A stretch of 63,145 bases of DNA from a virus: IMG/VR virus record IMGVR_UViG_3300050821_013320, positions 1-63,145 of that record; one strand, 5' to 3'. Below the pieces are notes generated by a model. That model did no database searches. It saw only the letters and a program-made list of their open reading frames with translations, and was not told the origin of the DNA. A program made the translations under genes and the position numbers. This document shows, piece by piece, positions 4,423 through 63,111 of the stretch (its first letter is position 1; each line of letters begins with the position of its first letter).

Positions 4423-4470
4423 GGAAGGAAGTCTATCATAGGATGGTTTTGGTTGGGAAGTACCAATTTC
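4423..4470 (-). promoter_or_regulatory. Possible promoter region with AGTACC motif
   Basis: AGTACC lies at 4459-4464 on the + strand, with TATGATAG between it and the ATG at 4422 when read on the - strand. The motif also occurs in the other non-coding leaders, so this may be a - strand start point. Confidence 0.35.
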
Positions 4471-5104
4471 ATGCTTTGGCCTCATGGTACTTGAGGCTTC
4501 GCTTGGGTTTTGGAGCGCTCAACCAGGAGTGGTTTTGGAGAGACTCGCGCAATCGTTCACGGGCTTTATCGGCCAACTGGGAAACCCGGCTTTCATGGAT
4601 TCCGAGACGGCGCCCAACTTGTTTCATGGGAATTTCTTCGAGGTAGTGGAGGCGGATCAGAAGCGCGGAGCGTTCGTTCAACTCCGAATCCCAACCGTCC
4701 GGCAGTTCCCGATTATCGACAAGATGATCTTCAATCGATTGCCGGTTATCGGACAGAGTGTCCTTGAAGTTGGTTCCCTGGACATCGATGCTGAAGTGGG
4801 CAGGGACGGTTTTTTTACGTCGATTAAAACCCGGTTTGCATGTCCGGAGATAATCTTTCATCGCGCCACGGACGCGCATTAGAGAAGCCTTGCCGAAGTG
4901 CCCATTTCGCGCCGGGTCCCAGTTAAACGTCGCCTCCCACAGAGCGAGACGCGCGACTTGTTCTAGATCCTTGAAGTGATCGTCCATTCCGATTGCGCTT
5001 GAGAGACGACGGGCTAGGCGCGAGTAGTAGGCACGCATCTCCTGTTCGACCATCGCGGCACGATCCATCCAACACAGTTTACAAGAACCGTGGTTCCGTC
5101 TCAT
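4469..5104 (-). CDS. Sigma-28-like RNA polymerase sigma factor (about 211 aa)
   Basis: Region 2 is visible as YYSRLARRLSSAIG through RVRGAMKDYLR, and region 4 as a helix-turn-helix (MKQVGRRLGIHESRVSQLAD) after ERSALLIRLHYLEEIP. This is the FliA/sigma-28 arrangement. The start is uncertain: ATG at 5104, 5068 or 5053 are all possible. The much longer open frame upstream is a shadow of the next two genes. The C-terminus (SLKYHEAKA) is translated repeat. It may direct host polymerase to the element's own promoters, such as the CCTAAG/AGTACC blocks (inference). Confidence 0.8.
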   Translation of the reverse strand: MRRNHGSCKLCWMDRAAMVEQEMRAYYSRLARRLSSAIGMDDHFKDLEQVARLALWEATFNWDPARNGHFGKASLMRVRGAMKDYLRTCKPGFNRRKKTVPAHFSIDVQGTNFKDTLSDNRQSIEDHLVDNRELPDGWDSELNERSALLIRLHYLEEIPMKQVGRRLGIHESRVSQLADKARERLRESLQNHSWLSAPKPKRSLKYHEAKA

Positions 5105-9563: not shown

Positions 9564-9686
9564 ATGATTTTCGGTGTTGCAGTTCTGATCGCCGCCGTGG
9601 GTTATGCGTCCTACCAGGCGTGGAATTATTTTGCTCGTCTGGCAAGGGGCAGGGAGATGATGAAGAGATTGAGGGAGGCGCAGTGA
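9564..9686 (+). CDS. Tiny membrane protein (40 aa)
   Basis: Preceded by GTGGAGG as a strong ribosome binding site. Begins MIFGVAVLIAAVGYASYQAW, one membrane segment, then a basic tail (RLARGREMMKRLREAQ). Stop overlaps the next GTG start (GTGA). First gene of the rightward operon. Confidence 0.6.
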   Translation: MIFGVAVLIAAVGYASYQAWNYFARLARGREMMKRLREAQ

Positions 9687-10240
9687 TTCGCAATATTTTG
9701 GCCTCATTCGGCATGTGGCTTGCGCGTCGGTTCGGTCCCGTTCGACCAGGAGAGGTACCGAAGACAACCGATCAACCAGTAGAACTATCGAAGACGACCG
9801 AACCAAAGCAAGTTGTTTTACATCAGGTATTCTCACCGCCACCCTCTTGTGGAATTTCGGGCTGTCTGAGTCCCACTCATCAAGAAGAAAAACTAGAACT
9901 TCATCCTGACTCCGAAGGGAACATCACGCCGGAAGAAGGCGCTGCACTGTTTCGTCAGTTGGCCGCTTTGCGGTCGATGGGAGTCGTTGAAAAGGTCGCA
10001 TACGAGCAGGTTGTTAAAGCAGCGATCTTACACCCAGTTCATGTCCACGACTGGAAACGCCCTGAACTGAATTTGACCAACCGCGCATCGATTTCTTTTT
10101 CGATTCTCGGTCAACTGTGCGATTGCGGAGCCACACGAGTCTACGAAGGCCCTGCTTTCGGCTGGAAGGTGACAGAACCTCTCCTGGTCGGGCGCTCCGA
10201 ATCTAACGTTCCTCCCGATTCGACGGAGGCTAAATCATGA
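9683..10240 (+). CDS. Cassette gene: zinc-binding hypothetical protein (185 aa)
   Basis: GTG at 9683 is chosen because it overlaps the previous stop; the longer frame to 9620 is a shadow. The head (ILASFGMWLARR...VRPGEV) and tail (PLLVGRSESN...STEAKS) are both translated repeat. The core has SCGISGCLSP, a helical region, and a C-terminal LCDCGATRVYEG, suggesting zinc sites. No family is recognised. Confidence 0.6.
   Translation: MIRNILASFGMWLARRFGPVRPGEVPKTTDQPVELSKTTEPKQVVLHQVFSPPPSCGISGCLSPTHQEEKLELHPDSEGNITPEEGAALFRQLAALRSMGVVEKVAYEQVVKAAILHPVHVHDWKRPELNLTNRASISFSILGQLCDCGATRVYEGPAFGWKVTEPLLVGRSESNVPPDSTEAKS
9693..10238 (+). mobile_element. Repeat-bounded cassette 7
   Basis: R-L A-type unit at 9693-9752 and L-R G-type unit at 10181-10238. 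Cargo is the gene 9683-10240, both of whose termini are repeat-encoded. Confidence 0.8.
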
Positions 10241-11258: not shown

Positions 11259-11644
11259 TCCCCCGGCGCACTCCCCTCCGTCGTAGCTGGCTGAAGCGCA
11301 AGCCCCGCAAAGAAGTGATCCCCATCGAAGTTCTCCAGTACTGGGCATGGATCAGGAAGCAGCCGTGCGCGGTCTGTGGGACGCGAAGGTGGATTGAGGC
11401 TGCGCACGTCGGCATGCGAGGGCTTCGGCAGAAATCGGACCACTGGGAAGTAATTCCGTTGTGTTCTACCGGGCATCACCGGGAAGGGCCGGAGAGTCAC
11501 CACAAACTGCAAAAAATCTTTTGGGGATTCCACGGAATTGATCGGTATGCGGCCATTCGGAAGTACCAGGGCCGATATTTTAGCCTCATCGGGATTGAGG
11601 CTTCGCGCGCGCTCGGCTCCGTTCGACCAGGAGAGGCCGCGTGA
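11255..11644 (+). CDS. HNH-like / DUF968-type nuclease (129 aa)
   Basis: CAVCG, EAAHVGMRG, VIPLCSTGHH and a second ESHHK motif in order match the DUF968/RecA-dependent-nuclease type of HNH proteins. Basic N-terminus (RRTPLRRSWLKRKPRK). The C-terminus (SLIGIEASRALGSVRPGE) runs into the repeat at 11575. Possible role: recombination or DNA end processing (family inference). Confidence 0.7.
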   Translation: MIPRRTPLRRSWLKRKPRKEVIPIEVLQYWAWIRKQPCAVCGTRRWIEAAHVGMRGLRQKSDHWEVIPLCSTGHHREGPESHHKLQKIFWGFHGIDRYAAIRKYQGRYFSLIGIEASRALGSVRPGEAA

Positions 11645-15684: not shown

Positions 15685-16815
15685 TATTTTGGCCTCATCG
15701 GGCATGAAGATTCGACCGGGTTTCGGTGCGTTCGACCAAGAGAGGATTTTGAGAATGGGATTGACATCGATAGAGTGGACGGATCGGACGTGGAATCCAA
15801 CGCGCGGCTGTTCGAGAGTATCGGAAGGATGCCGGAACTGTTACGCGGAAAGAATCGCCGCGCGGTTCAGCGATGAAGATTTAGAAGATCCGATAAATTG
15901 CGATCCTCCGTTGTGTGAACTCGATCCTCCACTTTCAGACAAGAGGACGGGTGTATTTTACGGGTTCGCGATTCGCACACCATCAGGTCCGCGCTGGACC
16001 GGCAAAGTGGAATTGATCGAATCGAAGTTGAGCGAGCCATTGCACTGGAAGAAACCGCAACGCGTGTTTGTTAATTCGATGAGCGATCTGTTTCACGAAG
16101 CGTTGCCGGATGACGCGATAGACCGTGTGTTCGCGATCATGGCGCTGTGTCCGCACATCACGTTTCAGGTTTTGACGAAGAGGCCGGAACGGATGTTGAA
16201 GTGGTTTACACCTGATTGGGATGCGCCGCGTGAAACATGGGAACGGGTCCGAGTTAGAACGGCACTTGTAAAAACGAAGATGTCGGAGGAATGGGACTGG
16301 CCTCTTTCCAACGTATGGCTCGGAGTCTCCGTCGAAGATCAGGCAACCGCCGACGTTCGCATCCCGCTTCTGTTGCAGACACCCGCCGCGATCCGGTTCG
16401 TGAGTTATGAACCGGCGCTCGGGACGGTGGACTTCGCAGAGTTTTTCAAACGATCTCCGCGATGTCCAACGGAGGCGTGCATCGCTCTTGATGAATGTGC
16501 GTGTCTCACTCGAACAGGACTCGACTGGATTATTGCGGGCGGGGAATCAGGACCCGGCGCGCGGCCTCCGCATCTCGATTGGTTTAGACAAGTCCGTGAT
16601 CAATGTATCGCCGCCGATGTTGCGTTTTTCTTCAAGCAATGGGGTGAATATTTTCCACGACCCGGTGAAGCATGGATGGGCGATCTTCATATGGAACGCA
16701 TCGGGAAGAAAAAAGCTGGCGCTCTTCTTGACGGTCGCGAGTGGAAACAATTCCCTCTCTTGGTCGAACACACCACCAGCCGCGCGAAGACTCAATCCCG
16801 ATGAGGCCAAATCAT
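15685..16815 (+). mobile_element. Repeat-bounded cassette 9
   Basis: R-L unit at 15685-15742 (L box has CCAAGAG) and L-R unit at 16757-16815, both A type. Cargo is the Gp37/Gp68-type gene. Confidence 0.75.
15755..16804 (+). CDS. Gp37/Gp68 (DUF5131) family protein (349 aa)
   Basis: ATG at 15755 follows AGAGAGG of the L box. Motifs TSIEWTDRTWNPTRGC, EGCRNCYAE, VFVNSMSDLFHE, FQVLTKRPERM, NVWLGVSVEDQ and WIIAGGESGPGARP are the signature order of phage Gp37/Gp68 proteins. The three N-terminal cysteines recall radical-SAM proteins; the reaction is not established. The tail FPLLVEHTTSRAKTQSR is repeat-encoded. Confidence 0.88.
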   Translation: MGLTSIEWTDRTWNPTRGCSRVSEGCRNCYAERIAARFSDEDLEDPINCDPPLCELDPPLSDKRTGVFYGFAIRTPSGPRWTGKVELIESKLSEPLHWKKPQRVFVNSMSDLFHEALPDDAIDRVFAIMALCPHITFQVLTKRPERMLKWFTPDWDAPRETWERVRVRTALVKTKMSEEWDWPLSNVWLGVSVEDQATADVRIPLLLQTPAAIRFVSYEPALGTVDFAEFFKRSPRCPTEACIALDECACLTRTGLDWIIAGGESGPGARPPHLDWFRQVRDQCIAADVAFFFKQWGEYFPRPGEAWMGDLHMERIGKKKAGALLDGREWKQFPLLVEHTTSRAKTQSR

Positions 16816-19227: not shown

Positions 19228-19927
19228 TGTTTTTGGCCTCATCGAAGATTCCAGTTCCCGCGTCCGCTATCCCGTTCGACCAGGAGAAAGTTTTCGTCTG
19301 TGATTCGGAGAATCCATGGGCTTAATCGGATTGGGCGATTCTCTCGTTGCGACGGCGCTTCCGGCCATGCCAGTGGATGTCACGACGGCGAACAACATCG
19401 TGAGCACGCAGCCATATTGGAATCTGATCATTCAAATCGCGCAGCAGCCAGCGAGCAACGCGAGTTCAGATAACACTGTGACAGCCGCGCAAATCGCAGC
19501 GGGGATACCGCAAGCGGCAGCGCAGTATAAATCGCTGAGCGGACCTCAACAACAGGCGTTGCTCGCTCCGTATTTGGCGCTATGGTCATTTCTTCCGACG
19601 TATCTCGCCAGTGCTCCAGTCGTTGACGCGTACAACAAACAGATGGGATCGTCCTACACTCCAGAGACCAATCCTTACGCGTTCATTTATTACACCGAGT
19701 ACGGGCAGGCGGCCCAATCCTTTCTGACGCAATTCTTTCAAGCTATCGGAGTGACGCCGCCAACGCTGAATAATTCCGGCACTGGATCTGGGAATGTTCC
19801 GCCGACGCTCATCTTTGGAATCGCGGCATTGGTCCTCTTGTGGCTGGTGATGAAATGAGAAAAAACCTCTCCTGGTCGGGCGCTCTTAAATTGATCGAAG
19901 CCGCGAAATCGACGGAGGCCAAAACAT
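19228..19927 (+). mobile_element. Repeat-bounded cassette 10
   Basis: R-L A-type unit at 19228-19286 and L-R G-type unit at 19869-19927. Cargo is the gene 19316-19858. Confidence 0.75.
19316..19858 (+). CDS. Cassette gene: tail-anchored protein (180 aa)
   Basis: Preceded by CGGAG before the ATG. Begins MGLIGLGDSLV. The Ala/Gln-rich middle (ITAAQIAAG-like, AQYKSLSGPQQQALLAPYLA) is helical, and the last 18 residues form a membrane segment (IFGIAALVLLWLVMK). One of the tail-anchored set in this module; likely in a viral or host membrane. Confidence 0.6.
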   Translation: MGLIGLGDSLVATALPAMPVDVTTANNIVSTQPYWNLIIQIAQQPASNASSDNTVTAAQIAAGIPQAAAQYKSLSGPQQQALLAPYLALWSFLPTYLASAPVVDAYNKQMGSSYTPETNPYAFIYYTEYGQAAQSFLTQFFQAIGVTPPTLNNSGTGSGNVPPTLIFGIAALVLLWLVMK

Positions 19928-22654: not shown

Positions 22655-22801
22655 TGCTTTGGCCTCATTCGATAGCGATGTCCCCGTCCGATATAACGTT
22701 CGACCAGGAGATGGTTTTGTCCTTCGAAGGTAGAAAAAACCTCTCCTGGTCGGGCGATCTCAATCTGATCGAAGCCGAGAAATCGACGGAGGCCAAATCA
22801 T
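22654..22801 (+). mobile_element. Compact repeat element E1 (inverted pair, empty)
   Basis: R-L A-type unit at 22654-22710 and L-R G-type unit at 22743-22801 flank a 32-bp linker (GGTTTTGTCCTTCG then GGTAGAAAAAAC). The whole element is an open frame from ATG 22654 to the TGA at 22801, overlapping the stop before and the start after. Confidence 0.85.
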
Positions 22802-26412: not shown

Positions 26413-27201
26413 AATCCCCGTTCTTTCGATCGCTGCGTCAAAGCCGTCTCCAAATCCGGTTCCGCAATTTCTCCCTACGCTGTCTGCAAAGCACAGGCAC
26501 AACGGAGAGGAACGAAAAACCCCGGACTCAACGCAATGCTGGCCGCGCTTCCCCATTCCACTCTTGGGAAGAAAGCCGGCGCTGCTCTCAAACGGTATTT
26601 CTCCGCAAAAAACCCGGCCGACAAATCCGAAGAAATGTACGAGATGTTCCACGGAATGCCGCCCGATGAAATCCTCACGATCGTCGAGCGCGTGCACGTT
26701 CACAAAAACCTGTGGACCGTGGGAACCCTCACGCAAATGGTGATTCAGACCTTCAACGGCAAGCAGTTCGACCTGGACGCTCCGGACCCGGACGAAGCGC
26801 GAGATACCGAAGTGGTATACGTCACGGCGAACGAGCCCTACACAGATAAAGACACCGGCAAAAAGATCGAAGGCGGAACGCAGATGTTCTTCCGCGGCGG
26901 CGATCAGGAGATTCCCGAATCGATCCTCAAAAGCCGGTGCGGATTCAACGACGACGATTTCAAGGAGCAGATGATTATCGGCTGGGTCGTCGACCTCACG
27001 TATCGAACAAAGAAGATTTTCGAAAAGAACGGAGAGGAGCTCGTCGACTTCGTTCACCCGCTCGGCAAAGAACACTCGCGCGGTGTGTTTCCGCTGCTGG
27101 TATACAAGCCACGGGATCCGAGCATGGCGTTGTTCGGCGGGCGTTACAAAGTACTGCCGGTGCGTGGAGATATTGGAGCGAGTCCGGGGATTGCGGGATG
27201 A
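26398..27201 (+). CDS. Hypothetical protein (267 aa)
   Basis: Starts on the ATG inside an R box (MRPKQNPRSFDRCVKAVSKS), the N-terminus being basic like a processed virion protein. Central part helical, C-terminal 150 residues alpha/beta (VVYVTANEPYTDKDTGKKIE, MIIGWVVDLTYRTKKIFEK). No recognised domain. It lies among structural genes. Stop overlaps the next start. Confidence 0.55.
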   Translation: MRPKQNPRSFDRCVKAVSKSGSAISPYAVCKAQAQRRGTKNPGLNAMLAALPHSTLGKKAGAALKRYFSAKNPADKSEEMYEMFHGMPPDEILTIVERVHVHKNLWTVGTLTQMVIQTFNGKQFDLDAPDPDEARDTEVVYVTANEPYTDKDTGKKIEGGTQMFFRGGDQEIPESILKSRCGFNDDDFKEQMIIGWVVDLTYRTKKIFEKNGEELVDFVHPLGKEHSRGVFPLLVYKPRDPSMALFGGRYKVLPVRGDIGASPGIAG

Positions 27202-27710
27202 ATAATAATTTGGCCTCATCGGACCTGTCGGCTTCGACCGCGCCTGAGAGCGTTCGACCAGGACAGGAACCTGTCATTAGCAGATGGATGGCGGAAGAGT
27301 ATCACATGCTTCCATCGGACGCGGTTGCGCTCCTAACGTTTAGCAGAAAAGACAACTCTCTTCTGGTGATGAACTGTTTTGAACGAACCGATGGAACATT
27401 TCGGCGGATTGATAACTTCGCCGCATGGGTACCATCCGAAGAGTTCTATTTAGCACGTAGAATACGGATTTCAGAGGAAGCAAAACCGCCGTATGAACAG
27501 GTGCTAGATGTGCTGGCCGGGCGGTTGCTGAGTGCGTTCTTAACCTATCGCTACGACGTCGATGTGAAACCGGAAGAGTTATATTCGTCAAACGACAAAG
27601 AGGCACTTCTACAACAGATCCGGTGGAATATCCGAAAGTTTGTTAAACCTCTCCTGGTCGGGCGCTCTCAACCTGACGGCTCTCCCAATTCGACGGAGGC
27701 CAAAACATGA
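27198..27710 (+). CDS. Cassette gene: hypothetical protein (170 aa)
   Basis: ATG at 27198 overlaps the previous stop. Head (NNNLASSDLSAST...SVRPGQE) and tail (PLLVGRSQPDGSPNSTEAKT) are repeat-encoded. The core of about 125 residues is alpha/beta (VALLTFSRKDNSLLVMNCFE) with a basic helix near the end. Function unknown. Confidence 0.6.
   Translation: MNNNLASSDLSASTAPESVRPGQEPVISRWMAEEYHMLPSDAVALLTFSRKDNSLLVMNCFERTDGTFRRIDNFAAWVPSEEFYLARRIRISEEAKPPYEQVLDVLAGRLLSAFLTYRYDVDVKPEELYSSNDKEALLQQIRWNIRKFVKPLLVGRSQPDGSPNSTEAKT
27206..27709 (+). mobile_element. Repeat-bounded cassette 11
   Basis: R-L A-type unit at 27206-27264 (CAGGACAGG variant) and L-R G-type unit at 27651-27709. Cargo is the gene 27198-27710. 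Confidence 0.8.
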
Positions 27711-27952
27711 ACGACTTGATGACATTTGCGAAAACAGTGCCGTACTTTCCACCGAACTCCTGTGCATGGGGACATGCCGCTCTTGGGTTTGGTGTGGGCT
27801 TTGTCGAACCGTGGGCGCAAGCGGTGGGGATTGCTCTGTTCGTCGCGTATGAAGCGATGCGCGATAAACCGATGAACGAGAAAATCGGCGCCGTTGCGGA
27901 GTTCACGACCGGGTTTTTAGTGCAGAAAGTCGCTTTCGGAGGGAAGCAGTAG
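27707..27952 (+). CDS. Small membrane protein (81 aa)
   Basis: ATG lies at the R end of cassette 11 after GGAGG. Hydrophobic middle (HAALGFGVGFVEPWAQAVGI, ALFVAYEAM) suggests one or two membrane helices with a soluble helix at the C-terminus. Function unknown. Confidence 0.5.
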   Translation: MNDLMTFAKTVPYFPPNSCAWGHAALGFGVGFVEPWAQAVGIALFVAYEAMRDKPMNEKIGAVAEFTTGFLVQKVAFGGKQ

Positions 27953-29085
27953 TGAATTTCATTTTCTTGAGCGTTCCGACATTCGAGCCGTGGGATTGGA
28001 CCAATCCCGATGTCAAAGGCATCGGCGGATCGGAGACCTCGCATATCGAAATGTCGAACCGGCTTTCGGATCGCGGACACTCGGTCTATTCGTACGGGCC
28101 GACGCCGTTCGAAGAACCGCGGCTGAATCCGCACGGGGTCACGTGGGAGCGCTGTGATCACGATTCGAACATCTGGCGGCGTCATGGTGTCTGGGTTGTC
28201 TATCGCGATCCGCAATCGATTGACGATATCGATCCCTCGAATCCTTCATGGCTGATCTGCCAGGATGTCGACTATCCGCAGTTGACGCAGGAGCGGGCCG
28301 CGAAGTTTACGCGCATCGTCGCGCTTTGCGAAACACACGGCCGGTATCTTCGCCAGAAGTACCCAACGGCGAACATTTGCGTTTCTTCGAACGGCATCAA
28401 GTCGGAATTGATCGCCGAGGCGCTGAAGAATCCGCCGGCGCGGAATTCCAAACGCCTGATGTACGCCTCAAGTCCCGACCGCGGCCTGCTGTACCTGTGC
28501 GAAATCTTCAAACGCGCGAAAGAACTGATGCCGGATCTCGAATTGCACGTGTACTACGGCTTCAACAACATCTCGAAGGTTGAAGAGTGCAATCCCGGAG
28601 TTAGAACTCGTACGAATGAAATCCGGCGCGCACTCGATCAGGAAGGTATCACCGACAACGGCCGCATGGGGCAGCCGGAGCTGATTCAGGAGTGGCTCAA
28701 GGCAGGTATCTGGTGTCACCCGTCAAGTTTCACGGAAACCTCCTGCATCACGTGCATGGACGCGCAAGCCCTCGGCGCCGTGCCGATCACAACCCCAGTG
28801 TGGGCAATCGCGGACAACGTAGAGCACGGCATCTTCATCGAAGGCGATCCCTACACCGATAACCTGACGCGTGCGCGATACACCCTGGAACTGATCCGGC
28901 TTGCACAAGATCTGGAACGTCAAGAAACAATCCGCGCCGAGATGATGCCCTACGCACAAGCGCGTTTCGGTTGGGAGAATTTCGTTGATCAGTGGGAAGT
29001 GTGGGCGCGCGAAGACTATTACCGCTCCTGGTCGGGCGCTCAAAATAACGCCGAAGTCGCGGCGCTCGTGGAGGCCAACGTATGA
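27952..29085 (+). CDS. Family 4-type glycosyltransferase (377 aa)
   Basis: GTG start at 27952. N-terminal NPDVKGIGGSETSHIEMSN is the donor-side glycine loop; SKRLMYASSPDRGLLYLCEI starts the second Rossmann domain; CHPSSFTETSCITCMDAQAL is the EX7E-like region. A GT-B retaining enzyme that moves a sugar from a nucleotide donor. Its last 17 residues (SWSGAQNNAEVAALVEANV) are encoded by a G-type repeat unit. Confidence 0.85.
   Translation: MNFIFLSVPTFEPWDWTNPDVKGIGGSETSHIEMSNRLSDRGHSVYSYGPTPFEEPRLNPHGVTWERCDHDSNIWRRHGVWVVYRDPQSIDDIDPSNPSWLICQDVDYPQLTQERAAKFTRIVALCETHGRYLRQKYPTANICVSSNGIKSELIAEALKNPPARNSKRLMYASSPDRGLLYLCEIFKRAKELMPDLELHVYYGFNNISKVEECNPGVRTRTNEIRRALDQEGITDNGRMGQPELIQEWLKAGIWCHPSSFTETSCITCMDAQALGAVPITTPVWAIADNVEHGIFIEGDPYTDNLTRARYTLELIRLAQDLERQETIRAEMMPYAQARFGWENFVDQWEVWAREDYYRSWSGAQNNAEVAALVEANV
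29035..29083 (+). repeat. Repeat unit, L-R, G type (solo, in coding sequence)
   Basis: Shorter than usual (about 49 bp; the R box reads GTGGAGGCCAACGTATG). It encodes the C-terminus of the glycosyltransferase and carries the ATG of the methyltransferase. Confidence 0.8.
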
Positions 29086-32637: not shown

Positions 32638-33099
32638 ATGTCCAGCTATCCAATGAACCAATTCGCACCAGACTACTTCCAAGGTCTCGCCGTCGATCCG
32701 AACGCTTCCGCGGAACCGAAGCCCTACGACTACATTTACAATCCTCCGAACAACCAACTGACCGCGCTGCAATCGTTGAGCGGACAAACCGTTCCGATTC
32801 AGACGGACGCAGATTTCTACATGTTCGGCTGGTATATTTCGCTTTTCACGGGCGCGTTTCAGGTGCGCTTGACCGATGCGACGGGCTACCAGTTGCAGAG
32901 CGGCTTCATCAACTCCGGAGCGCTCTCGCAAGCCTCGAATGATCCGACGATTTTCTCTCCGTCGCATTTGTTTCCGGCTGGATCAAAGATCTTGATCGAC
33001 ATCACGGACCTGTCGAACGCCACGAATTCTCTGCAAATTGTGTTCAAGGGAATCAAGTTGTATAAGATTACGGGACGGGGGCCACTCAAGGCGCAATGA
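32638..33099 (+). CDS. Beta-rich candidate virion protein (153 aa)
   Basis: AAAGGAATTT precedes the ATG. Strand-rich throughout, ending SKILIDITDLSNATNSLQIV then FKGIKLYKI. The end motif (hydrophobic, then G-x-K-L-Y) also ends the proteins at 35941 and in 37257, so the three share a fold, possibly a jelly-roll. Confidence 0.55.
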   Translation: MSSYPMNQFAPDYFQGLAVDPNASAEPKPYDYIYNPPNNQLTALQSLSGQTVPIQTDADFYMFGWYISLFTGAFQVRLTDATGYQLQSGFINSGALSQASNDPTIFSPSHLFPAGSKILIDITDLSNATNSLQIVFKGIKLYKITGRGPLKAQ

Positions 33100-33500
33100 T
33101 GTTTTGGCCTCATCGTAGTTCGGTCTTCGCGCGGGCGCGGTCGCGTTCGACCAGGAGGGGTTTGTGAGTAGCCACACGCACACCTACGTCACACTGGAAA
33201 TCAGCGCCGTTGGATACGATGAGATAGCCCGTAAACTTCGCGCCGCCGACTACGGACATTGCTTCAATTCTGCGGGTGAAATCGACCTGACCGGGATTGC
33301 AGTGGTTCGCGCTCCAGATCGACCACGACGAATCGTGACTCCTGATGGAGAAGATAATATCTGGTGTCCGAATTGCGGTGGAACCCACTACGGATCACTC
33401 CATTGCCCCTACTCAGCAGAGCAGGGCGCGGCATTTAAAGCGGCCGCTGTCGAGAACTCTCAATCCGAACAAGCCGCAACTCCGAACGAGGCCAAAACAT
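33099..33500 (+). mobile_element. Repeat-bounded cassette 12
   Basis: R-L A-type unit at 33099-33157 and L-R type-3 unit at 33442-33500. Cargo is the gene 33164-33502. Confidence 0.8.
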
Positions 33501-33502
33501 GA
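33164..33502 (+). CDS. Cassette gene: zinc-binding hypothetical protein (112 aa)
   Basis: GTG start 6 bp after AGGAGGGG of the L box, the clearest case of the repeat acting as ribosome binding site. Beta-rich N-terminal part, then CPNCGGTHYGSLHCPYS, a zinc site. The tail AAVENSQSEQAATPNEAKT is a translated type-3 unit. Confidence 0.65.
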   Translation: MSSHTHTYVTLEISAVGYDEIARKLRAADYGHCFNSAGEIDLTGIAVVRAPDRPRRIVTPDGEDNIWCPNCGGTHYGSLHCPYSAEQGAAFKAAAVENSQSEQAATPNEAKT

Positions 33503-34002
33503 GCACACCCGCCTACCCAATCATCGACGGCTTCGTACTCAAAACGCTTTTACGCTGCAATCTCACCTTCGGAGCATTAGCAATCGAGCAGTACGAAGAT
33601 CTCCGTCGATCTCGCGCGCTTCGCTCCAAAGGCTGGTGCGTTCCGAACGATCCCAGTTCCCAATCGGTTCCCAAGTTCGACTCCTACGAATATCAGGTGT
33701 GGATGAAACCGGGCTCCGCAATCTGGGGCTACACATTCACCGGCGATTCAACGGCGGGCGGCAACGGCGGTATCGATTCCTTCCAAGTCCGTGAGACGTG
33801 CTCCGACGTTCCGCTGTTTTCTGAATCCGTTACAAAAAAACCGGAGTCTGCGAACTTCTGGGGCAAGACCTGGGCGCGCCAGCAGTACCTTTCAGAATTG
33901 CTGATTGTTCCGGCTCCGGGCCTGCTGCATGTTGAGATTGCGACTACTGCTCCCGTGAACAGAGCAATTCAGCTTATCCTGTGGGGAGGGGAGCCAGCCT
34001 AA
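33499..34002 (+). CDS. Beta-rich candidate virion protein (167 aa)
   Basis: ATG overlaps the previous stop. Sequence is beta-rich with aromatic residues (YQVWMKPGSAIWGYTFTGD, LLHVEIATTAPVNRAIQLIL) and ends LWGGEPA. Similar in length and style to the gene at 32638. Possibly a minor capsid or spike protein. Confidence 0.5.
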   Translation: MSTPAYPIIDGFVLKTLLRCNLTFGALAIEQYEDLRRSRALRSKGWCVPNDPSSQSVPKFDSYEYQVWMKPGSAIWGYTFTGDSTAGGNGGIDSFQVRETCSDVPLFSESVTKKPESANFWGKTWARQQYLSELLIVPAPGLLHVEIATTAPVNRAIQLILWGGEPA

Positions 34003-39445: not shown

Positions 39446-41002
39446 TCATTCGGCTGTGCGCTGCGCGTCCACTTCGGAGCGTTCGACCAGGAGACGGGCT
39501 TCAATCACCCGCCCAAGTAGAACCGTAAACGCGACCGCAGACTGAAGCGGTACCACTCCATTGCCCAAGGCCCGCAAGGCTCCGGTACGCTCTCTAACCA
39601 CCAGTGCGGCCATCCCATCAGCCACGTCTCGAAGATCGGATTCAGCTTCCGCTTGTGAGTAGGAAGGACGCAACCAGGGATACCGCACCAGCAGGTCTTT
39701 CCAGCCGGGGAAGCCGGGTCCTGGAGCGAAGATATCTGCCGAACCAAGTAGGATGTCTCGCTGTTGTTCGAATCGTGCGCTCGTGGCGCGTGCGGCGTGT
39801 TCCACATCCGGGTCTGACCCGTCAGCGAGTCCGATGCCCCATTCGGATGATTTCCACAACTCTCCCCGTCCTCCGCTCTCGGAGTCGCCCAGTTGTTCAC
39901 CTGTTTCGAGAACTCCCCGCCGCCCGATCCGCCCTGCTTCCCCGTTGAGTCCATGTTCTCTTGACCGTGTGGGGTGTTCCACATTTCCGCTTGGTTCGCA
40001 ATCTGGATTCCGTGATCCACCGTTCTGGGATCGTGCGATCGATCGGAGGCCATCGGGGTTCCCCACATCACCGCTTGATCTTCTATCCGGGCCTTCGCGT
40101 CTGTCCGCTCGTTCCCATTCCCGCCGTTGTTCGTCACTCGCGGGGTTCCCCATTGCGCCGCCTGTTCGTTCAGAGGCCGCGCATTCCCGTAGTCCGCTAT
40201 CGTCTCCCCTGACCTCGTATCCCGGCTCATCGGTGTTGCCCACAAAATCACTTGGCCGTCCAAATCCAGTCTGCCCGTATGCGTATGCGTACTCTTCGTG
40301 TTGGGTCCGCCTGTCGGAGTGTTGGGCGTTGACCACTGATCCACCGCATTCGCCAAATCGTGCGGCTTGTAATGGTGATCCGCCATCGTATTGCCACGCA
40401 TACCGCCCGAGTCGTGCGCCGTTCCGGTAGGCCAGAATGAACACTCGCTTCCGGCCGTGCGAGGCACCCACGTCGGACGCGCGCAAACAGAGCCATTCCG
40501 CATCGAACCCGAGCCGGGCCAGGTCTGAGAGTACGGTTCCGAATCCCCCAATAGCGTCTGTTGAGGATTCCTCCAGATCCCATCGGTCAAAATCGCTATC
40601 GGTTGCGAGGAGGAGGCCGGGGACGTTTTCAAGGAAGACGATTTCGAGCTGGTCGCCAAGTACTTCGATGACGCGCGCGATGTCCGGCCAGATCCAGCGT
40701 TCATCCTCTTTCCCTTTGCGCTTTCCGGCGACACTGAACGGTTGGCAAGGGAAGCCAGCAGAGAGGACCGAAATGATTCCACGCCATGGTCTGCCATCGA
40801 AGGTGACGACATCATCCCACCAAGCGAGTTGAGGGATCGATCCTTCGCGAATGCGTTGCGCAATGCGGCCGGCGACCGCAATTTCCCGTTCCACCACACA
40901 GACTGAGCGATAGCCGGGGATGGCGACTTCGAGTCCGAGTTCAAGTCCAAGCGCCCCTCCACAGATTCCAATTCCGTAGATGGGCTCGGAACGATCAGCC
41001 AC
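39446..41002 (-). CDS. DNA (cytosine-5) methyltransferase (518 aa)
   Basis: Motif order: IYGIGICGGALGLELGLEV (SAM binding), AGFPCQPFSVAGKRKGKEDE (PCQ nucleophile), IVFLENVPGLL (ENV), ASHGRKRVFILAYR (QxRxR-like), and a C-terminal ALGNGVVPLQSAVAF. The long region 210-410 is a low-complexity target-recognition stretch with repeats of G-N-P/S-x. It methylates cytosine in element DNA, likely against host restriction. The tail RLLVERSEVDAQRTAE is repeat-encoded. A second long frame overlaps it. Confidence 0.88.
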   Translation of the reverse strand: MADRSEPIYGIGICGGALGLELGLEVAIPGYRSVCVVEREIAVAGRIAQRIREGSIPQLAWWDDVVTFDGRPWRGIISVLSAGFPCQPFSVAGKRKGKEDERWIWPDIARVIEVLGDQLEIVFLENVPGLLLATDSDFDRWDLEESSTDAIGGFGTVLSDLARLGFDAEWLCLRASDVGASHGRKRVFILAYRNGARLGRYAWQYDGGSPLQAARFGECGGSVVNAQHSDRRTQHEEYAYAYGQTGFGRPSDFVGNTDEPGYEVRGDDSGLRECAASERTGGAMGNPASDEQRREWERADRREGPDRRSSGDVGNPDGLRSIARSQNGGSRNPDCEPSGNVEHPTRSREHGLNGEAGRIGRRGVLETGEQLGDSESGGRGELWKSSEWGIGLADGSDPDVEHAARATSARFEQQRDILLGSADIFAPGPGFPGWKDLLVRYPWLRPSYSQAEAESDLRDVADGMAALVVRERTGALRALGNGVVPLQSAVAFTVLLGRVIEARLLVERSEVDAQRTAE

Positions 41003-41046
41003 ACAAACCCCTCCTGGTCGGGCGCTCCAAAACCCGGCGAAGCCAC
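39505..41046 (-). CDS. Long overlapping frame within the methyltransferase gene (513 aa)
   Basis: Shifted frame, open for 1.5 kb, with repeated W-x-TP-x-A/M-x-D blocks (WATPMSRDTRSG, WGTPRVTNNGG, WGTPMASDRSHD, WATPRAEDGESC) and the end LNPIFETWLMGWPHWWLES. From memory, phage cytosine methyltransferase genes often carry a partner frame with the pattern W-P-T-P ... LNP-x-FVEWLMG, so both frames may be translated. Its head (MASPGFGAPDQEGFV) is repeat-encoded. Confidence 0.5.
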   Translation of the reverse strand: MASPGFGAPDQEGFVWLIVPSPSTELESVEGRLDLNSDSKSPSPAIAQSVWWNGKLRSPAALRNAFAKDRSLNSLGGMMSSPSMADHGVESFRSSLLASLANRSVSPESAKGKRMNAGSGRTSRASSKYLATSSKSSSLKTSPASSSQPIAILTDGIWRNPQQTLLGDSEPYSQTWPGSGSMRNGSVCARPTWVPRTAGSECSFWPTGTAHDSGGMRGNTMADHHYKPHDLANAVDQWSTPNTPTGGPNTKSTHTHTGRLDLDGQVILWATPMSRDTRSGETIADYGNARPLNEQAAQWGTPRVTNNGGNGNERTDAKARIEDQAVMWGTPMASDRSHDPRTVDHGIQIANQAEMWNTPHGQENMDSTGKQGGSGGGEFSKQVNNWATPRAEDGESCGNHPNGASDSLTGQTRMWNTPHAPRAHDSNNSETSYLVRQISSLQDPASPAGKTCWCGIPGCVLPTHKRKLNPIFETWLMGWPHWWLESVPEPCGPWAMEWYRFSLRSRLRFYLGG

Positions 41047-41068
41047 GCTGCTCTAGGAGGCCAAATCA

Positions 41069-42610
41069 TCATCGCCTCACAACATTTCGTTTCATACCTG
41101 AAACCACCTGATACCCATCAGATAGCTTATAAAAAAATCCCAGTGTTGTAAGCGCATCACATTCCCGGTAGACGCTCGGCTTGGCGACGGAGACACCCCG
41201 CTTCTGCAATTCGTTGAATGCCGCGTTGCCGGCAGTTGGGTTGTCGAAGAATCCTTCCGTGATCAGCCGGGCGATGTTTCCTCGCAGCGAATCCCCGTCT
41301 ACTTCAATGGTCCGTTTGGTGACTTCGAATTGGATTTCCGGCTCCGTGGCCATGATTTTCAAACACACTGGATCTTTGGTGATGCGGGCTTTGATTGCGG
41401 ACCACAGTTCTTCGGAGAGATGGCCGTTCGAACTCCTGATGGGTTGGCGCTCTTCACGGGTTGCCGGTTTTGCCGACTGCCCCTCCGTTCGCGCTAAGAA
41501 GAGTCGTTCGATTCGCGCTTCGAGTTCTTCGACCCGGCGTTGAGATTCAGCGTAGAGCGATTCCCAATCGACGTAGTTGCCTTCCTTATCCATCGGCATA
41601 TCGGACTCCTGTTCCTCGACTTCGAACGGCTGCAAAATCTCCGGCTCCGGTTCAGCTTTCTTCCGGTTCTTCGACTTCGGTTCTCCAATCGCGTTCAACC
41701 GTTCCTGAATCGCCTCCAGATCAATACTGGCAAGAACAACCTTGCGCGTCGTCTCATCCGGCGCCTTCGAGCTGTCGTAGGTCGAGATCCGGGGAAACTG
41801 CGTCAATTCGAGCAAGCCGATCTCCGGCGCCCACAGCCAGCCTTGCCCGGTATCGAGCGACGGAAGGGTTTTCACCACGTCGCCGCCCTGTGCGCGCGTG
41901 GCCCACTCTCCAATCCAATCCTCAACCGCAGCGACGTCGTGAGGCGCAATCATCCGCATTGCGATCAACGTAGCGGCCTGCGTCAGCGAATCTTTGTGCA
42001 ACTTACTTGGCCGCTGGGAGATAAGCGTGATTCGGAGGCCATTTCCGCGGCCGAGGCTCACCAAGTTGTTTCCGGCGTGCAGCATGCGCCCCGATTGCGG
42101 GCTGTAGACTTTGCCCTGGGGCATGAACAGGTGCGCTTCGTCGATGATCAGATTGAGAGGCCCAGTGTTGATTCGCAGCAACGTTTCCCCGAAGTCCGCC
42201 AAAAACGTCGTCCGCTCGGCAATTGTCATGTTGCGGGTGTTGATCACCGCTGACGTCTCGGTGGTTCCGATGATCTCCGCGATCGCGTGGCCTTGCGTGT
42301 GGCTCAAAGGTAGGTCGGAGTGCTTTCCGCCGAACACGTAGATTGGGAAGCCTGGTTTGCGGCCGGTGACATCGGATCGCAGTCCCCACCAGACGCCCGT
42401 GGGATCAAGAATGCAGACTCTCCGGCGCTGTTTGAGCAGCATTTCGGCGATTCCCTTGGCAGTGTAGGTTTTGCCGGAGCCGGTAATCCCCAGAATCGCA
42501 ATGTGCTGCTCCAGGACCTTCGCGGGGATCTGTTGCGATGAGGTTCTCCCAGTGGATAAGACGTTTAATAGCTCTTTGCCTTGCTTCTGGAGTTGTAGGA
42601 GGGGGTCCAC
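41069..42610 (-). CDS. HerA/FtsK-type ATPase (513 aa)
   Basis: Walker A is ILGITGSGKTYTAKGIAEML, Walker B LNLIIDEAHLFMP, and LITLISQRPSKLHKD the sensor region. This is the HerA/DUF87 hexameric DNA-pumping family. The C-terminal 170 residues add a Lys/Glu-rich linker, a coiled coil (DWESLYAESQRRVEELEARI) and a winged-helix-like end (NELQKRGVSVAKPSVYRECD). In an element without a recognisable terminase it is the best candidate packaging or transfer ATPase (inference). Confidence 0.82.
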   Translation of the reverse strand: MDPLLQLQKQGKELLNVLSTGRTSSQQIPAKVLEQHIAILGITGSGKTYTAKGIAEMLLKQRRRVCILDPTGVWWGLRSDVTGRKPGFPIYVFGGKHSDLPLSHTQGHAIAEIIGTTETSAVINTRNMTIAERTTFLADFGETLLRINTGPLNLIIDEAHLFMPQGKVYSPQSGRMLHAGNNLVSLGRGNGLRITLISQRPSKLHKDSLTQAATLIAMRMIAPHDVAAVEDWIGEWATRAQGGDVVKTLPSLDTGQGWLWAPEIGLLELTQFPRISTYDSSKAPDETTRKVVLASIDLEAIQERLNAIGEPKSKNRKKAEPEPEILQPFEVEEQESDMPMDKEGNYVDWESLYAESQRRVEELEARIERLFLARTEGQSAKPATREERQPIRSSNGHLSEELWSAIKARITKDPVCLKIMATEPEIQFEVTKRTIEVDGDSLRGNIARLITEGFFDNPTAGNAAFNELQKRGVSVAKPSVYRECDALTTLGFFYKLSDGYQVVSGMKRNVVRR

Positions 42611-45246: not shown

Positions 45247-45335
45247 GGATCATCTGCCTTCCATCGACGGAACTCTCTATTGGAAAGCGGGCGGATTCCG
45301 CGAAGTGCCCAGAGGAGGAAGCGGAGATATCTCAT
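45174..45335 (-). CDS. Small basic protein with repeat-encoded tail (53 aa)
   Basis: ATG at 45335 overlaps the stop of the upstream cassette gene. MRYLRFLLWALRGIRPLSNR is an amphipathic basic start; the last 25 residues (LASSRVEASTEGKSVRPGDG) are repeat. Unique part only about 28 residues, so function is doubtful, but start and stop overlaps on both sides support translation. Confidence 0.4.
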   Translation of the reverse strand: MRYLRFLLWALRGIRPLSNREFRRWKADDPTLASSRVEASTEGKSVRPGDGLS

Positions 45336-45700
45336 GTTTTGGCCTCGTTCTGAATCGCGGATTGTTCAGATTGAGACTTCTCGACAGCGTGTTCTGTCAG
45401 CCAATCGAGAACTTTTTGCGGATTCTTACCACGCTCCCAGATTTCATCACCACACGCGAATTGATCCAACGTTGTTTCGAACTTTGGACTGCCGGTCGTG
45501 TGGATCACCCTCTTGATGTTGGTCGGTTTCCCATACGCGAAAATATCGAAGGACATCGTTGAGAACTTCTCGCCCATCATGTGGAAGGTTTCGCGTTGGG
45601 TGAAAGTCACAAACCCCTCCTGGTCGAACGGAGGCGCGTGCGCGTGGGAACCAGATCCCGATGAGGCCAAACCATAAGATAGGAACCTACCAGAAAACAT
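45332..45700 (-). CDS. Cassette gene: hypothetical protein (122 aa)
   Basis: Head YGLASSGSGSHAHAPPFDQE and tail HAVEKSQSEQSAIQNEAKT are repeat-encoded. The core is alpha/beta (QRETFHMMGEKFSTMSFDIF, FETTLDQFACGDEIWERG). No family. First gene of the leftward run, with the promoter-like region 45676-45781 in front. Confidence 0.5.
   Translation of the reverse strand: MFSGRFLSYGLASSGSGSHAHAPPFDQEGFVTFTQRETFHMMGEKFSTMSFDIFAYGKPTNIKRVIHTTGSPKFETTLDQFACGDEIWERGKNPQKVLDWLTEHAVEKSQSEQSAIQNEAKT
45334..45675 (-). mobile_element. Repeat-bounded cassette 18
   Basis: R-L type-3 unit at 45334-45389 and L-R A-type unit at 45617-45675. Cargo is the gene 45332-45700. Confidence 0.75.
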
Positions 45701-53532: not shown

Positions 53533-53654
53533 GGATTTTGCGATTTGTAATGGGCAGGTTCACCGCCTTAGACCGTTGTTGTCAACGTGACGATGGTTTG
53601 GCACTCTATTTCAAACCTACCCATGATAGGCTCGGGATTTCTCCCTGCTTACAC

Positions 53655-53725
53655 AGCCAAACTGGGATTCGAACCGACGACCTCCAGGTTATGAGCCTGA
53701 CGACCTACCGCTGGTCCATCCCGCT
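53655..53725 (-). tRNA. tRNA-Met-like gene (anticodon CAT)
   Basis: Read on the - strand: D stem GACC/GGTC perfect, anticodon stem TCAGG/CCTGG, loop CTCATAA with CAT, TTCGAAT T-loop. The acceptor stem has one mismatch plus wobbles and the T stem (GTCGG/CCCAG) has two mismatches, and CCA is not encoded. So it is a degenerate or specialised tRNA-Met, 71 bases long. The 270 bp around it hold no other gene. Confidence 0.7.
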
Positions 53726-53804
53726 AGAAGTTGAAGCGCCCGCCCGACCCTTTCCCCGGAACGGAACGAGCGCTGATTTCACAAGAAGATTTGATGTTAC
53801 TCCT

Positions 53805-54057: not shown

Positions 54058-54873
54058 TCACGGCCAACTGAGCGTCCCACTTCCACTCATAGAGAATCCA
54101 GAACAAGAATACGCTGCTGAATTGGCGGGAACCAAAACACCATTCAACATTGTAACCGGGTTCTGTGTCGCGTTGATCTGAATCGAGCACATCAGATTTT
54201 CATCCGGCAGTGTCGATGTTGGGATGGCAATCGAGTTGATCCCGATGTTGAAATACGCCGTGCCGTTTCCGCCGTTGAATAGATCCGCAGTGTAGGAGCC
54301 GGAATTCGCGCCGTAGGAATTGAAGCAGACCCACGTGATGCGGAGCGGGGTTTGAGCCACTTTCGACGCACGGCATGTCGCCTGCCCCACAGATGCGCTG
54401 AACCATGGGGTTGTGCCGGTGGAGGCGTTCACCTGAATTGCAACGGGATTTCCGGCTGTGGTCGGTACCGAGACGCCAGATAGCGAAGTGGCAGCGATAT
54501 TCGTGAGGCTGATCTGCTGCGCGCCGAGGGGTGCGTTTTGGGTGAGGATGATCGGGATGTTGGCGATCACTCCCGGCCCGAATGTCGTAGTCGTGCCGCC
54601 GATGGCGATGCAGATGAAGGTCGCCGGGTTGCAGGTGACTGTTTTTTGCGCCGCGGTCGATGCCGGACCCGCAACGACGTTTCCCAGCGTGAAACCCGCT
54701 GGCATGGAGAGAGACCAATTGAAACCGGCGATCGCCGGCGAAGACGTGTTGTTATTTGAGTAGACCACGCTCAGAACCAACTGGGAGCCGGGATAGGAGA
54801 AGGGTTCGGAGAGTGTGGGGGAAAGGGATTGTGCTGTACAGGAGAGTGTCAAAAAGAAGAAGAGTTTTTTCAT
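54058..54873 (-). CDS. Secreted cohesin-like beta protein (271 aa)
   Basis: Signal peptide MKKLFFFLTLSCTAQS. Residues 25-165 (PFSYPGSQLVLSVVYSNNNT, VIANIPIILTQNAPLGAQQI) have the strand order of cohesin or invasin-type Ig domains. The C-terminal half has CRASKVAQTPLRITWVCFNS with further cysteines. Possibly surface-binding. Confidence 0.6.
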   Translation of the reverse strand: MKKLFFFLTLSCTAQSLSPTLSEPFSYPGSQLVLSVVYSNNNTSSPAIAGFNWSLSMPAGFTLGNVVAGPASTAAQKTVTCNPATFICIAIGGTTTTFGPGVIANIPIILTQNAPLGAQQISLTNIAATSLSGVSVPTTAGNPVAIQVNASTGTTPWFSASVGQATCRASKVAQTPLRITWVCFNSYGANSGSYTADLFNGGNGTAYFNIGINSIAIPTSTLPDENLMCSIQINATQNPVTMLNGVLVPANSAAYSCSGFSMSGSGTLSWP

Positions 54874-55485
54874 GTTTTGGCCTCAGTCGGAACGTGGCTT
54901 CGCGTCGGAATCGGAGCGTTCGACCAGGAGGGGTTTGGGTTTACAATCGTGATCTCTTTTACCGACTAACAGCATTGCACCGATTTTGAATAGATCCGCC
55001 AAATCGTGATTACCGCTCTGCCGTCCACATCTTCGGCACGTCAGTTCGAAGGTCATGAACAATTCAACGCAACCGATCAGAGTGAGAAAGGAAACAAAGC
55101 CGATGATGTCATAGAACGTTGTCATTGGACCATCAGGTAGTAACCTTGCCCCTTCATAGGCGGTTTAAGTCCCATTTCGCGCCACCCGCGCTTCCATCCC
55201 GTTCCCCGAATCCGTTCCGAAAGCGGAGGATATCCCTCTTCGTTGAGTTCACCAAGTTGATGGCAGTCGATCATATCGCGGACAGTTTCATAGGGAATGT
55301 CATAACCCTGCGTTTCATTCGGAAGTATTTCGGGCCGGGGAATCAGACGCGCAGTATTGAATCCGACCAGGAGAATATATCCGTCACCGAGTTTGGTGCA
55401 AATCTCTCGGATGCTCACAAAAACCCCTCCTGGTCGAACGCTCAATCGGACCCGCGAAGCCGCGAGCCGGATGAGGCCAAAACAC
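54872..55485 (-). mobile_element. Repeat-bounded cassette 20
   Basis: R-L unit at 54872-54930 and L-R unit at 55427-55485, both A type. Cargo is two overlapping genes, 54883-55125 and 55122-55487. Confidence 0.75.
54883..55125 (-). CDS. Cassette gene: small membrane/zinc protein (80 aa)
   Basis: N-terminal membrane segment (DIIGFVSFLTLIGCVELFM), then CRRCGRQSG, a half zinc site, and the repeat tail KPLLVERSDSDAKPRSD. Overlaps the gene before it. Confidence 0.5.
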   Translation of the reverse strand: MTTFYDIIGFVSFLTLIGCVELFMTFELTCRRCGRQSGNHDLADLFKIGAMLLVGKRDHDCKPKPLLVERSDSDAKPRSD

Positions 55486-55746: not shown

Positions 55747-56658
55747 GTGGAAACGAACCTGATCGCTCTCTTTGAACAGTTTGGCGCGGATGACTCGAAA
55801 TGCCGCAAGTACCTTGAGGCTCTCAAATGGCCAACTGGCGCGAAGTGCCCGCGTTGCACCGATAAGACCGAGGTCTACGCACTTGCGGAGCGCGACCAAT
55901 ACCATTGCATGGCCTGCCATTATCACTTTTCGGTAACTGCTGGCTCGATCTTTCACGACTCCCATCTTCCCCTGTGGAAGTGGTTCTTGGCAACTTACAT
56001 GATGGTTGAGTCGAAGAAAGGTATCTCGGCTAACCAAATGAAACGCACTTTGAGCATCAGCTATAAGACCGCATGGTATCTCTGCCATCGTATCCGCAAG
56101 GCCATGCTGGAAGTTAATCCGAAGCCTATCGGAGCGGATGGTATCGTCGAACTGGACGAAACCTACGTGGGCGGCAAGAAGCGTTATGTGGGCCGTGGAA
56201 GCCTCGAAGGTAAGACCATGGTGCTCGGGGCTGTCGAACGTGGCGGGGAGATCAGGCTTCGCGTGGATCGCCGCAAGAAGGCCAGTAAAGAGGCGCTCCA
56301 TGGCTTTGCGATAGAAACGCTCTCGCCTGATACCGCTCGCATCATGACGGACGAAGCCCCCGGATACGTAGGGATCGCGGACGAAGATACGACGCATGAA
56401 ACCGTTAACCACCGCGCCGAAGAATGGGTTCGTGGCGATGTTCACACGAACTCGGTCGAGGGCGTATGGAGCCTGTTCAAGCGGTCTATCGTTGGTTCGT
56501 ATCATCAAGTCAGCACCAAACATCTTGACTCGTACCTCGATGAGTTTGAGTGGCGCTTCAACCAACGCGACAATCCGTACCTGTTTCGCGATACGCTGGT
56601 GCGCCTGCTTAACTCGCCGAAGATGGAGTTTAAGGAACTCATCGAGAAATCGGCTTAA
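55747..56658 (+). CDS. IS1595-family (ISXO2-like) transposase (303 aa)
   Basis: GTG start. N-terminal zinc ribbon (CPRCTDK, HCMACHYHFS), then the DDE domain: VELDETYVGGKKRYVGR (first D), MTDEAPGYVGIADED (second D) and NSVEGVWSLFKRSIVGSYHQ (E). Full length for the family, with no internal stop, so likely active. Confidence 0.93.
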   Translation: METNLIALFEQFGADDSKCRKYLEALKWPTGAKCPRCTDKTEVYALAERDQYHCMACHYHFSVTAGSIFHDSHLPLWKWFLATYMMVESKKGISANQMKRTLSISYKTAWYLCHRIRKAMLEVNPKPIGADGIVELDETYVGGKKRYVGRGSLEGKTMVLGAVERGGEIRLRVDRRKKASKEALHGFAIETLSPDTARIMTDEAPGYVGIADEDTTHETVNHRAEEWVRGDVHTNSVEGVWSLFKRSIVGSYHQVSTKHLDSYLDEFEWRFNQRDNPYLFRDTLVRLLNSPKMEFKELIEKSA

Positions 56659-62478: not shown

Positions 62479-63111
62479 ATGAGCCAACCCCTACCGGGCG
62501 GAATGTTTATCCAGGTTCCACCGCCGCATCGGAACTTCACTTTCATCGCGGAGCCGCATCAGTTGCGGGAACAGATTGAAAAAGCGGAACATCTCGCGGA
62601 CGCAATCTGGAGGGCGCTGCCGTGTTTTATCCCTGCGACCGCGATTGAACGGATGTCCATCGAATCCGTGGGCGACGTGCTAATGGGCGTTCGGGTGTCA
62701 CTCCGGAATTTCCTCTGCTGCGAGCTGGAACAGAAACTCGCGGACCAGTTGAAGAACCCGCTTCCGACCGAGGAACAGATGCGCGCCGAAATGGAAAAGG
62801 CGATGCGCGGTGTCAAGGTCAAACCGCCGATTGAAGTTCTCTTGCAGGCGCAACAAAAAGTCTCGGCGATTGAAGAGGCAATTCAAAAGATCGAGGAACT
62901 CGACGACGACAATCCCATCAAGGAATACGGCTCCGCGCTCCTGCTTCCGCAATACCGGATGCAACTCGACCAGGAACGCGACTACCTGTCCAGAATTCAG
63001 GCAGCGCTGGAAGAACCGGACGAAACACCGTCGAACGAAGCCAGCGAATCGCCCATGTCGAGCGGTACGGAATCCGGCGAAGGCACAGTACCCGATGAGG
63101 CCAAACCCTAA
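62479..63111 (+). CDS. Hypothetical protein, complete copy (210 aa)
   Basis: GGGAGAAG precedes the ATG. Helical, with a middle region (MSIESVGDVLMGVRVSLRNF, EQKLADQLKNPLPTEEQMRA) and a long C-terminal helix pair (QQKVSAIEEAIQKIEELDDD) shared with the partial gene at 1-303. The C-terminal Glu/Ser-rich end is a type-3-like repeat. Function unknown. Confidence 0.7.
   Translation: MSQPLPGGMFIQVPPPHRNFTFIAEPHQLREQIEKAEHLADAIWRALPCFIPATAIERMSIESVGDVLMGVRVSLRNFLCCELEQKLADQLKNPLPTEEQMRAEMEKAMRGVKVKPPIEVLLQAQQKVSAIEEAIQKIEELDDDNPIKEYGSALLLPQYRMQLDQERDYLSRIQAALEEPDETPSNEASESPMSSGTESGEGTVPDEAKP
63051..63110 (+). repeat. Repeat unit, L-R, type-3-like (solo)
   Basis: CATGTCGAGCGGTACGG as L and CCCGATGAGGCC as R. 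An identical copy lies at 243-302. Encodes the C-terminus of the 210-residue protein. Confidence 0.75.

Follow-up and report, generated by a model that had tools for sequence, protein, structure and literature searches.

Start-associated sequences (SAS and ESAS) of Cluster K mycobacteriophages are a phage-specific repeat with an AGGAG core lying just upstream of start codons (PMC3203893). The SAS is 13 bp long and occurs in 11 to 19 copies that are mostly in one orientation and tied to starts; its consensus is subcluster specific, about half of the copies have imperfect inverted repeats, it is nearly absent from the host genomes that were checked, and a role in translation has been suggested (PMC3203893). 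REPINs, or REP doublets, consist of two inverted short repeats per unit around a variable middle and are found in many extragenic copies. They fall into lineage-specific types, include both single and paired arms, and are associated with a RAYT (Y1) transposase (PMC3116915). The bacterial MITE-like repeats, among them Correia/NEMIS, ERIC, YPAL, and the Rickettsia palindromic elements, are inverted-repeat elements of 100 to 200 bp with stable RNA stem-loops; some are co-transcribed with their neighbors or have open reading frames (ORFs) fused to genes, and several have target duplications (PMC2229807, PMC2649163). Finally, Cluster O mycobacteriophages carry more than 30 symmetric copies of 17-bp dyad repeats across the genome, which flank gene gains and losses explained by recombination (PMC4351075).

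Here, we compare these systems with a repeat array in an uncultivated virus. The window that we analyzed is the whole IMG/VR virus record, 63,145 bases long. It contains about 75 copies of an arm of about 55 nt (HMM, E ≤ 0.1) with the layout TTTGGCCTC-N36-CGACCAGGAG, where TTTGGCCTC is the outer core and CGACCAGGAG is the inner core. Both cores are exact in 37 arms, whereas none were recovered in 100 dinucleotide shuffles, and arm alignments reveal a conserved center (GGCTTCG) between the two. We refer to arms in plus orientation as L and to arms in minus orientation as R; 62 of the 74 adjacent arm pairs in the window are L-R or R-L. The outer end lies between -12 and +20 nt from a called gene boundary in 56 of the 75 arms, compared with 4.6% of random oriented positions. 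Like MITEs, the elements have terminal inverted repeats, with NTTTGGCCTC at each outer end, and the scanned genomes contain 89 consecutive L-R pairs (loops of <60 nt in 20), which is the pair unit that defines REPINs. Three arm types are distinguished by the sequences ..CGTTCGACCAGGAG and GGCCTCA (type A), ..CGCCCGACCAGGAG and GGCCTCC (type B), and ..CTCGACAG and GGCCTCG (type C). A pattern scan with TCGACNAG misses type C arms because the pattern is wrong for that type.

The window encodes a HerA/FtsK-type ATPase (41069-42610) and several small membrane-like proteins, from which our guess is a tailless membrane-containing virus. The predicted structure of a conserved 234-amino-acid (aa) candidate capsid protein had a mean pLDDT of 30.8. 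This conserved protein led us to further related viruses, and no relative was found in a phage collection by DNA or by the same protein. Matches to the arms in a genome collection were lone and weak, and no bacterial genome in it had a real array. An Rfam search of the window returned tRNA only; a tRNA-Met (anticodon CAT; 53653-53726, minus strand) lies between L arms. At the contig ends, a 225-nt direct repeat (1-225 and 62806-63030, about 90% identical) sits inside two related genes (93% aa), representing either a gene duplicate or a diverged terminal repeat.

The architecture is illustrated by positions 33099 to 33502. A type A L arm on the 5' side (33103-33157, plus strand; outer TTTGGCCTC at 33103-33111, inner CGACCAGGAG at 33148-33157) starts 3 nt past the stop of the upstream gene (TGA, 33097-33099). 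Its inner end carries AGGAG at 33153-33157, which is followed after 6 nt by the GTG start of a bracketed accessory gene of 112 aa (33164-33502, plus strand). The C terminus of this gene is encoded by a type C R arm on the 3' side (33445-33498, minus strand; CTGTCGAGAACTC...CGAACGAGGCCAAAAC), where the frame ends as AVENSQSEQAATPNEAKT* and the TGA overlaps the next ATG. At the outer end of the same arm, GAGG (33488-33491) precedes by 7 nt the ATG of a conserved core gene (33499-34002, plus strand), which would take its Shine-Dalgarno (SD) sequence from the R arm and has orthologues in G001, G002, and G003 (71%). An earlier note on this DNA had described both signals, and both are present as described, except that the outward spacing at 33499 is 7 nt rather than 8. 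The two further inner-end examples that it named also hold. One is an L arm at 11579-11633 (plus strand) with AGGAG 7 nt before GTG 11641, the start of a 57-aa membrane-like ORF that runs to 11814; the other is an L arm at 15688-15742 (plus strand) with CAAGAGAGG before the ATG of a DUF5131 gene (15755-16804).

Read outward, the outer end follows the form GAGGCC-AAANC-ATG, with 7 nt between SD and start. When spacing was measured across arms, as the earlier note had proposed, an SD at proper distance was found for 45 of the 46 outward ATG starts located ≤8 nt from an outer end in G000, G001, and G002, with a mode of 7 nt. Both orientations are used. L arms adjoin the starts of minus-strand genes (e.g., 7159, 54873, and 59400), and R arms adjoin those of plus-strand genes (e.g., 22800 and 33499). 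For example, the L arm at 54876-54930 (plus strand) is positioned outward as GAGGCCAAAAC|ATG of the minus-strand gene 54058-54873. Read inward, the inner end takes the form AGGAG-(6-8 nt)-GTG/ATG; 33164 and a C5 cytosine methylase are examples. The arm on the 5' side of the methylase cassette (41011-41065, minus strand) has AGGAG 8 nt before a GTG, and the N terminus of the Pfam-recognized methylase begins at this codon. The cassette itself (39446-41002) has no homologue in the compared relatives and carries a B arm 5' and an A arm 3', so that its polarity is opposite to the usual one. Across the array, an ATG or GTG ORF of at least 60 aa begins 4 to 14 nt after the inner end in 13 of 68 arms (6.0 expected, P = 0.006), and several of these starts have the common sequence AGGAGGGG[TG]TT(TT)GTG. 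The case for use of the outer site is strong, and it is much better supported than the inner site because inner starts are found at a minority of arms. Both ends are thus plausible ribosome-binding sites by sequence, and we infer that they function as such in vivo. The claim that one unit can serve translation in either direction stands for arm orientation, while inner-end use is confined to that minority.

Translation frequently extends into the arms. The ending ...EAK[TSP]* is found in many bracketed genes, and unrelated proteins have common C-terminal tails (LLVGRS..TEAKT and AVEKSQSEQA..NEAKT) because their last ~17 to 20 codons lie in the 3' arm. Examples of tail-carrying genes are 9683-10240, 27288-27710, 33164-33502, and 45332-45610. 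The C terminus of a virus-encoded sigma-70-like factor (regions 2 and 4; 4469-5053) is likewise encoded by an arm. We considered whether the arm is a selected coding tag and rejected this, as tail frames had no consistent synonymous excess (0.18 observed versus 0.23 expected for the C tag, with mixed results for B arms).

Comparison of orthologous junctions revealed occupied and empty alleles. A short unit consists of L, loop, and R and spans about 140 nt. The one at 22658-22797 (plus strand; an A arm, a loop, and a B arm), which places GGAGGCCAAATC ahead of ATG 22800, is missing in G001, G002, and G005, where the flanking genes overlap (ATGA in G001 and G005) or abut (G002). In the empty alleles of this junction (22654|22800), the SD of the second gene lies within the last codons of the first gene. 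An inserted unit must therefore supply a replacement, and the occupied allele in the window has a new SD in the form GGAGGCCAAATC|ATGA. Although ATGA flanks the unit on both sides, the constraint on start and stop codons yields an identical pattern, so a clean target-site duplication is unreadable. At this junction and at 27201|27707, the window alone has arms, while at 23339|23336 a unit is present in G001 and G002 and absent from G000 and G005. At 19218|19926, the window has an L arm (19232-19286), a 180-aa ORF (19316-19858), and an R arm (19869-19923) on the plus strand, where G001, G002, and G005 have a bare short L-R unit. At slot 33099|33499, the L arm is common to G000, G001, and G003 with a different gene behind it in each, and the homologue of the 33164 gene sits after the 33499 orthologue in G001 and G002. 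An R arm at 29025-29079 (minus strand) overlaps the 3' end of a 377-aa gene (27952-29085) and places GGAGG before ATG 29082; at this site G006 also has the arm, and the gene end in G002, G003, and G005 is unrelated. Altogether, arm presence differs in 23 of 108 orthologous-junction comparisons, and the median difference in junction length is 4.5 nt without arms on either side versus >200 nt with arms. These presences and absences were seen among divergent relatives, with no precise excision among them. The middle of the arm at 43328 is most similar to that of the arm at the same site in a relative (score 0.92), and the middles at 54877 and 11836 are closest to each other within one genome (score 0.83), a mixed kinship that fits inheritance plus intragenomic spread.

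Genes located between arms tend to be accessory. In G000, 8 of 24 genes inside L..R are conserved compared with 38 of 45 outside (P = 3.4e-5), and genes inside are also less conserved in G001 (P = 0.004); the small ORFs in this comparison come from a home-made caller, which adds uncertainty. The contrast was not seen in G002, G010, and G011, genomes with fewer arms or with less complete arm detection.

The relatives also separate the repeat from its translation signals. In G010 and G011, where much of the core gene order is retained, the arms belong to a second family, TTTGGCGAC-N-GGTCGTTCCCC (L239-L244), with 33 and 20 exact copies, respectively. These arms match those of the window in their TTTGGC end and resemble them in their middle (GG[CT]TTC[GA]C[GT]TC), and their outer ends adjoin both starts and stops. 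However, an SD was absent at all 14 ATG starts located ≤8 nt from them, compared with its presence at 45 of 46 in the window's clade. Proximity to starts and stops is thus common to both families, whereas the SD is specific to the window's clade. G008 and G009 retain core gene order, and k-mer scans found no comparable repeat in them, though a strongly diverged family could escape such scans.

The search for movers gave one candidate. A serine recombinase (Resolvase, PF00239; 44087-44755, minus strand), whose start adjoins an arm (L_out 44755), has homologues in G001, G002, G008 to G011, and G013; all large relatives tested but G004 encode it, armed or not, and it is a candidate actor on the arms. 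A Y1/RAYT transposase (PF01797) is absent from G000, G001, G002, G010, and G011, and a host RAYT could still be involved. An intact IS1595-type (ISXO2-like) transposase at 55747-56658, on the strand opposite to its neighbors, occurs in the window only among the compared genomes, and nothing ties it to the arms.

The most likely reading in our view, at a probability of about 0.6, is a repeat that moves or recombines and whose ends are translation compatible in this clade. The arms are probably lineage-specific dispersed inverted repeats, REPIN- or MITE-like in architecture, that bracket accessory genes. Arms of ~55 nt, mostly in inverted pairs (L..R), would punctuate the conserved backbone of the virus group in this way, and the unit may have spread by transposition or recombination. 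When placed between overlapping genes (ATGA), a unit would leave the upstream stop intact, and the outer end of its R arm (GAGG/GGAGG-CCAAANC-ATG) would act as a new SD and start for the downstream gene. For a gene between arms, initiation may occur behind the inner AGGAG and termination within the R arm, at a TGA that overlaps the next ATG. Presumably this clade acquired the translation signals as a way of tolerating insertions. Because the boundary repeats of related viruses differ and have no SD, the ribosome site seems to be an adaptation of the repeat and not what the repeat exists for. On the other side stand the missing Y1 transposase, the unreadable target-site duplication, the missing contrast between inside and outside genes in G002, G010, and G011, the presence of the recombinase in G008 and G009, which have no detected arms, and the vertical conservation of some arms together with stronger SDs on those that face starts, which fits a maintained function.

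That fit raises the alternative that the arms are primarily a translation or mRNA element, like start-associated sequences, kept for initiation or for coupling of neighboring genes; in short units, a long hairpin could keep the downstream SD hidden until translation of a leader ORF passes through the hairpin. Within the window, B arms point toward starts (13:2) and A arms toward stops (25:12; P = 0.0006), and the stronger GGAGG, as opposed to GAGG, is more common on start-facing arms (13:2 versus 17:25, P = 0.0025). This enrichment is evidence of adaptation to translation, and the modal spacing of 7 nt also speaks for this alternative. Nearly all short units with a clear sense run from a 5' A arm to a 3' B arm, a polarity that places the G.U wobbles on the sense strand, and their predicted folding energies are about -42 to -78 kcal/mol (most -55 to -78). 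In 15 of 19 short units, a frame that opens with a start codon close to the L end runs through to the R end, with 29 open frames in sense versus 17 in antisense, but an antisense frame is open in 14 of the 19 as well. Covariation can give the hairpin no support, since its pairing cores are almost unchanged across units, and a simple single-arm RNA hairpin was rejected because RNAalifold on arm alignments was weak. The alternative also sits poorly with units that come and go at orthologous junctions, with the SD-free arm family of G010 and G011, and with core order that is kept in G008 and G009 without detectable arms. We regard it as unlikely. The suggestion in the earlier note of selection for translation, not just parasitism, therefore holds in part: the GGAGG bias and the unit's replacement of a lost SD favor it, while the same relatives and the predominance of A arms facing stops argue against translation as what maintains the repeats. 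In this clade the ends look able to act as portable ribosome-binding sites, judging from their sequence, and that ability is compatible with a mobile or selfish origin.

Somewhat less improbable, though still doubtful, is that the arms are recombination sites for cassette exchange, homologous or site specific and perhaps through the serine recombinase, with genes swapped at fixed slots. The differing contents behind one L arm at 33099|33499, the 33164 gene at a neighboring slot in relatives, and the near-universal recombinase all point in this direction, and lineage-specific arm sequences suggest a co-evolving recognizer. Yet the recombinase also occurs where arms were not detected, inverted pairs predict inversions whereas genes largely keep their order and strand, and no cleavage site or crossover was mapped. 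The least probable of the alternatives is that the arms are transcription signals, that is, promoters, terminators, or operator sites of a virus-encoded regulator. Two conserved cores around GGCTTCG would fit protein binding and the window encodes the sigma-like factor at 4469-5053, but both arm orientations lie inside co-directional gene runs, stops as well as starts are adjoined, and arm alignments contain no A+T-rich -10-like box.

A broader and tentative possibility, which we think rather unlikely, is that this virus group has its own cassette-exchange architecture in which gene slots are marked by recombining arms that are lineage specific and change fast, and in which the arm ends of one clade serve as universal translation adapters. 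If so, any gene swapped into a slot would be translated and its neighbors would stay coupled, through an SD and start outward, an SD inward, and a stop-start overlap. How phage genes can be swapped without breaking overlapping operons is an old question that becomes directly testable here, given a dispersed repeat that occupies most of the gene boundaries in a virus and has ends that resemble translation adapters. The natural comparison genomes, some with arms but no SD and others with no detectable arms, separate the biology of the repeat from the ribosome-binding site.

Set against the described systems, the array resembles the SAS in having an SD core immediately upstream of starts, but it differs in its about 75 arms of ~55 nt, their alternating orientation, SDs at both ends, and bracketed accessory genes; instead of a single orientation toward starts, it includes 25 A-type arms that face stops in the window. 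It resembles REPINs in its paired inverted arms with a variable middle, its mixture of single and paired arms, and its lineage-specific types, but no RAYT was found, genes lie inside many pairs, and the ends carry an SD and a start codon. We do not claim membership in either group, since one defining feature of each was tested and is lacking here. Inverted-repeat units with stable predicted stem-loops and reading frames that run into the arms recall the bacterial MITE-like repeats; those are chromosomal, however, whereas these arms belong to a virus, occupy most of its gene boundaries, have SD ends, and give no clean duplication. The Cluster O repeats resemble the arms in being dispersed over the genome and in flanking sites of gene gain or loss, but they are much shorter and are not closely linked to translation starts. 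Boundary-wide inverted viral arms with an SD at both ends that bracket accessory genes are a combination absent from the reports on all of these systems (PMC3203893, PMC3116915, PMC2229807, PMC2649163, PMC4351075).
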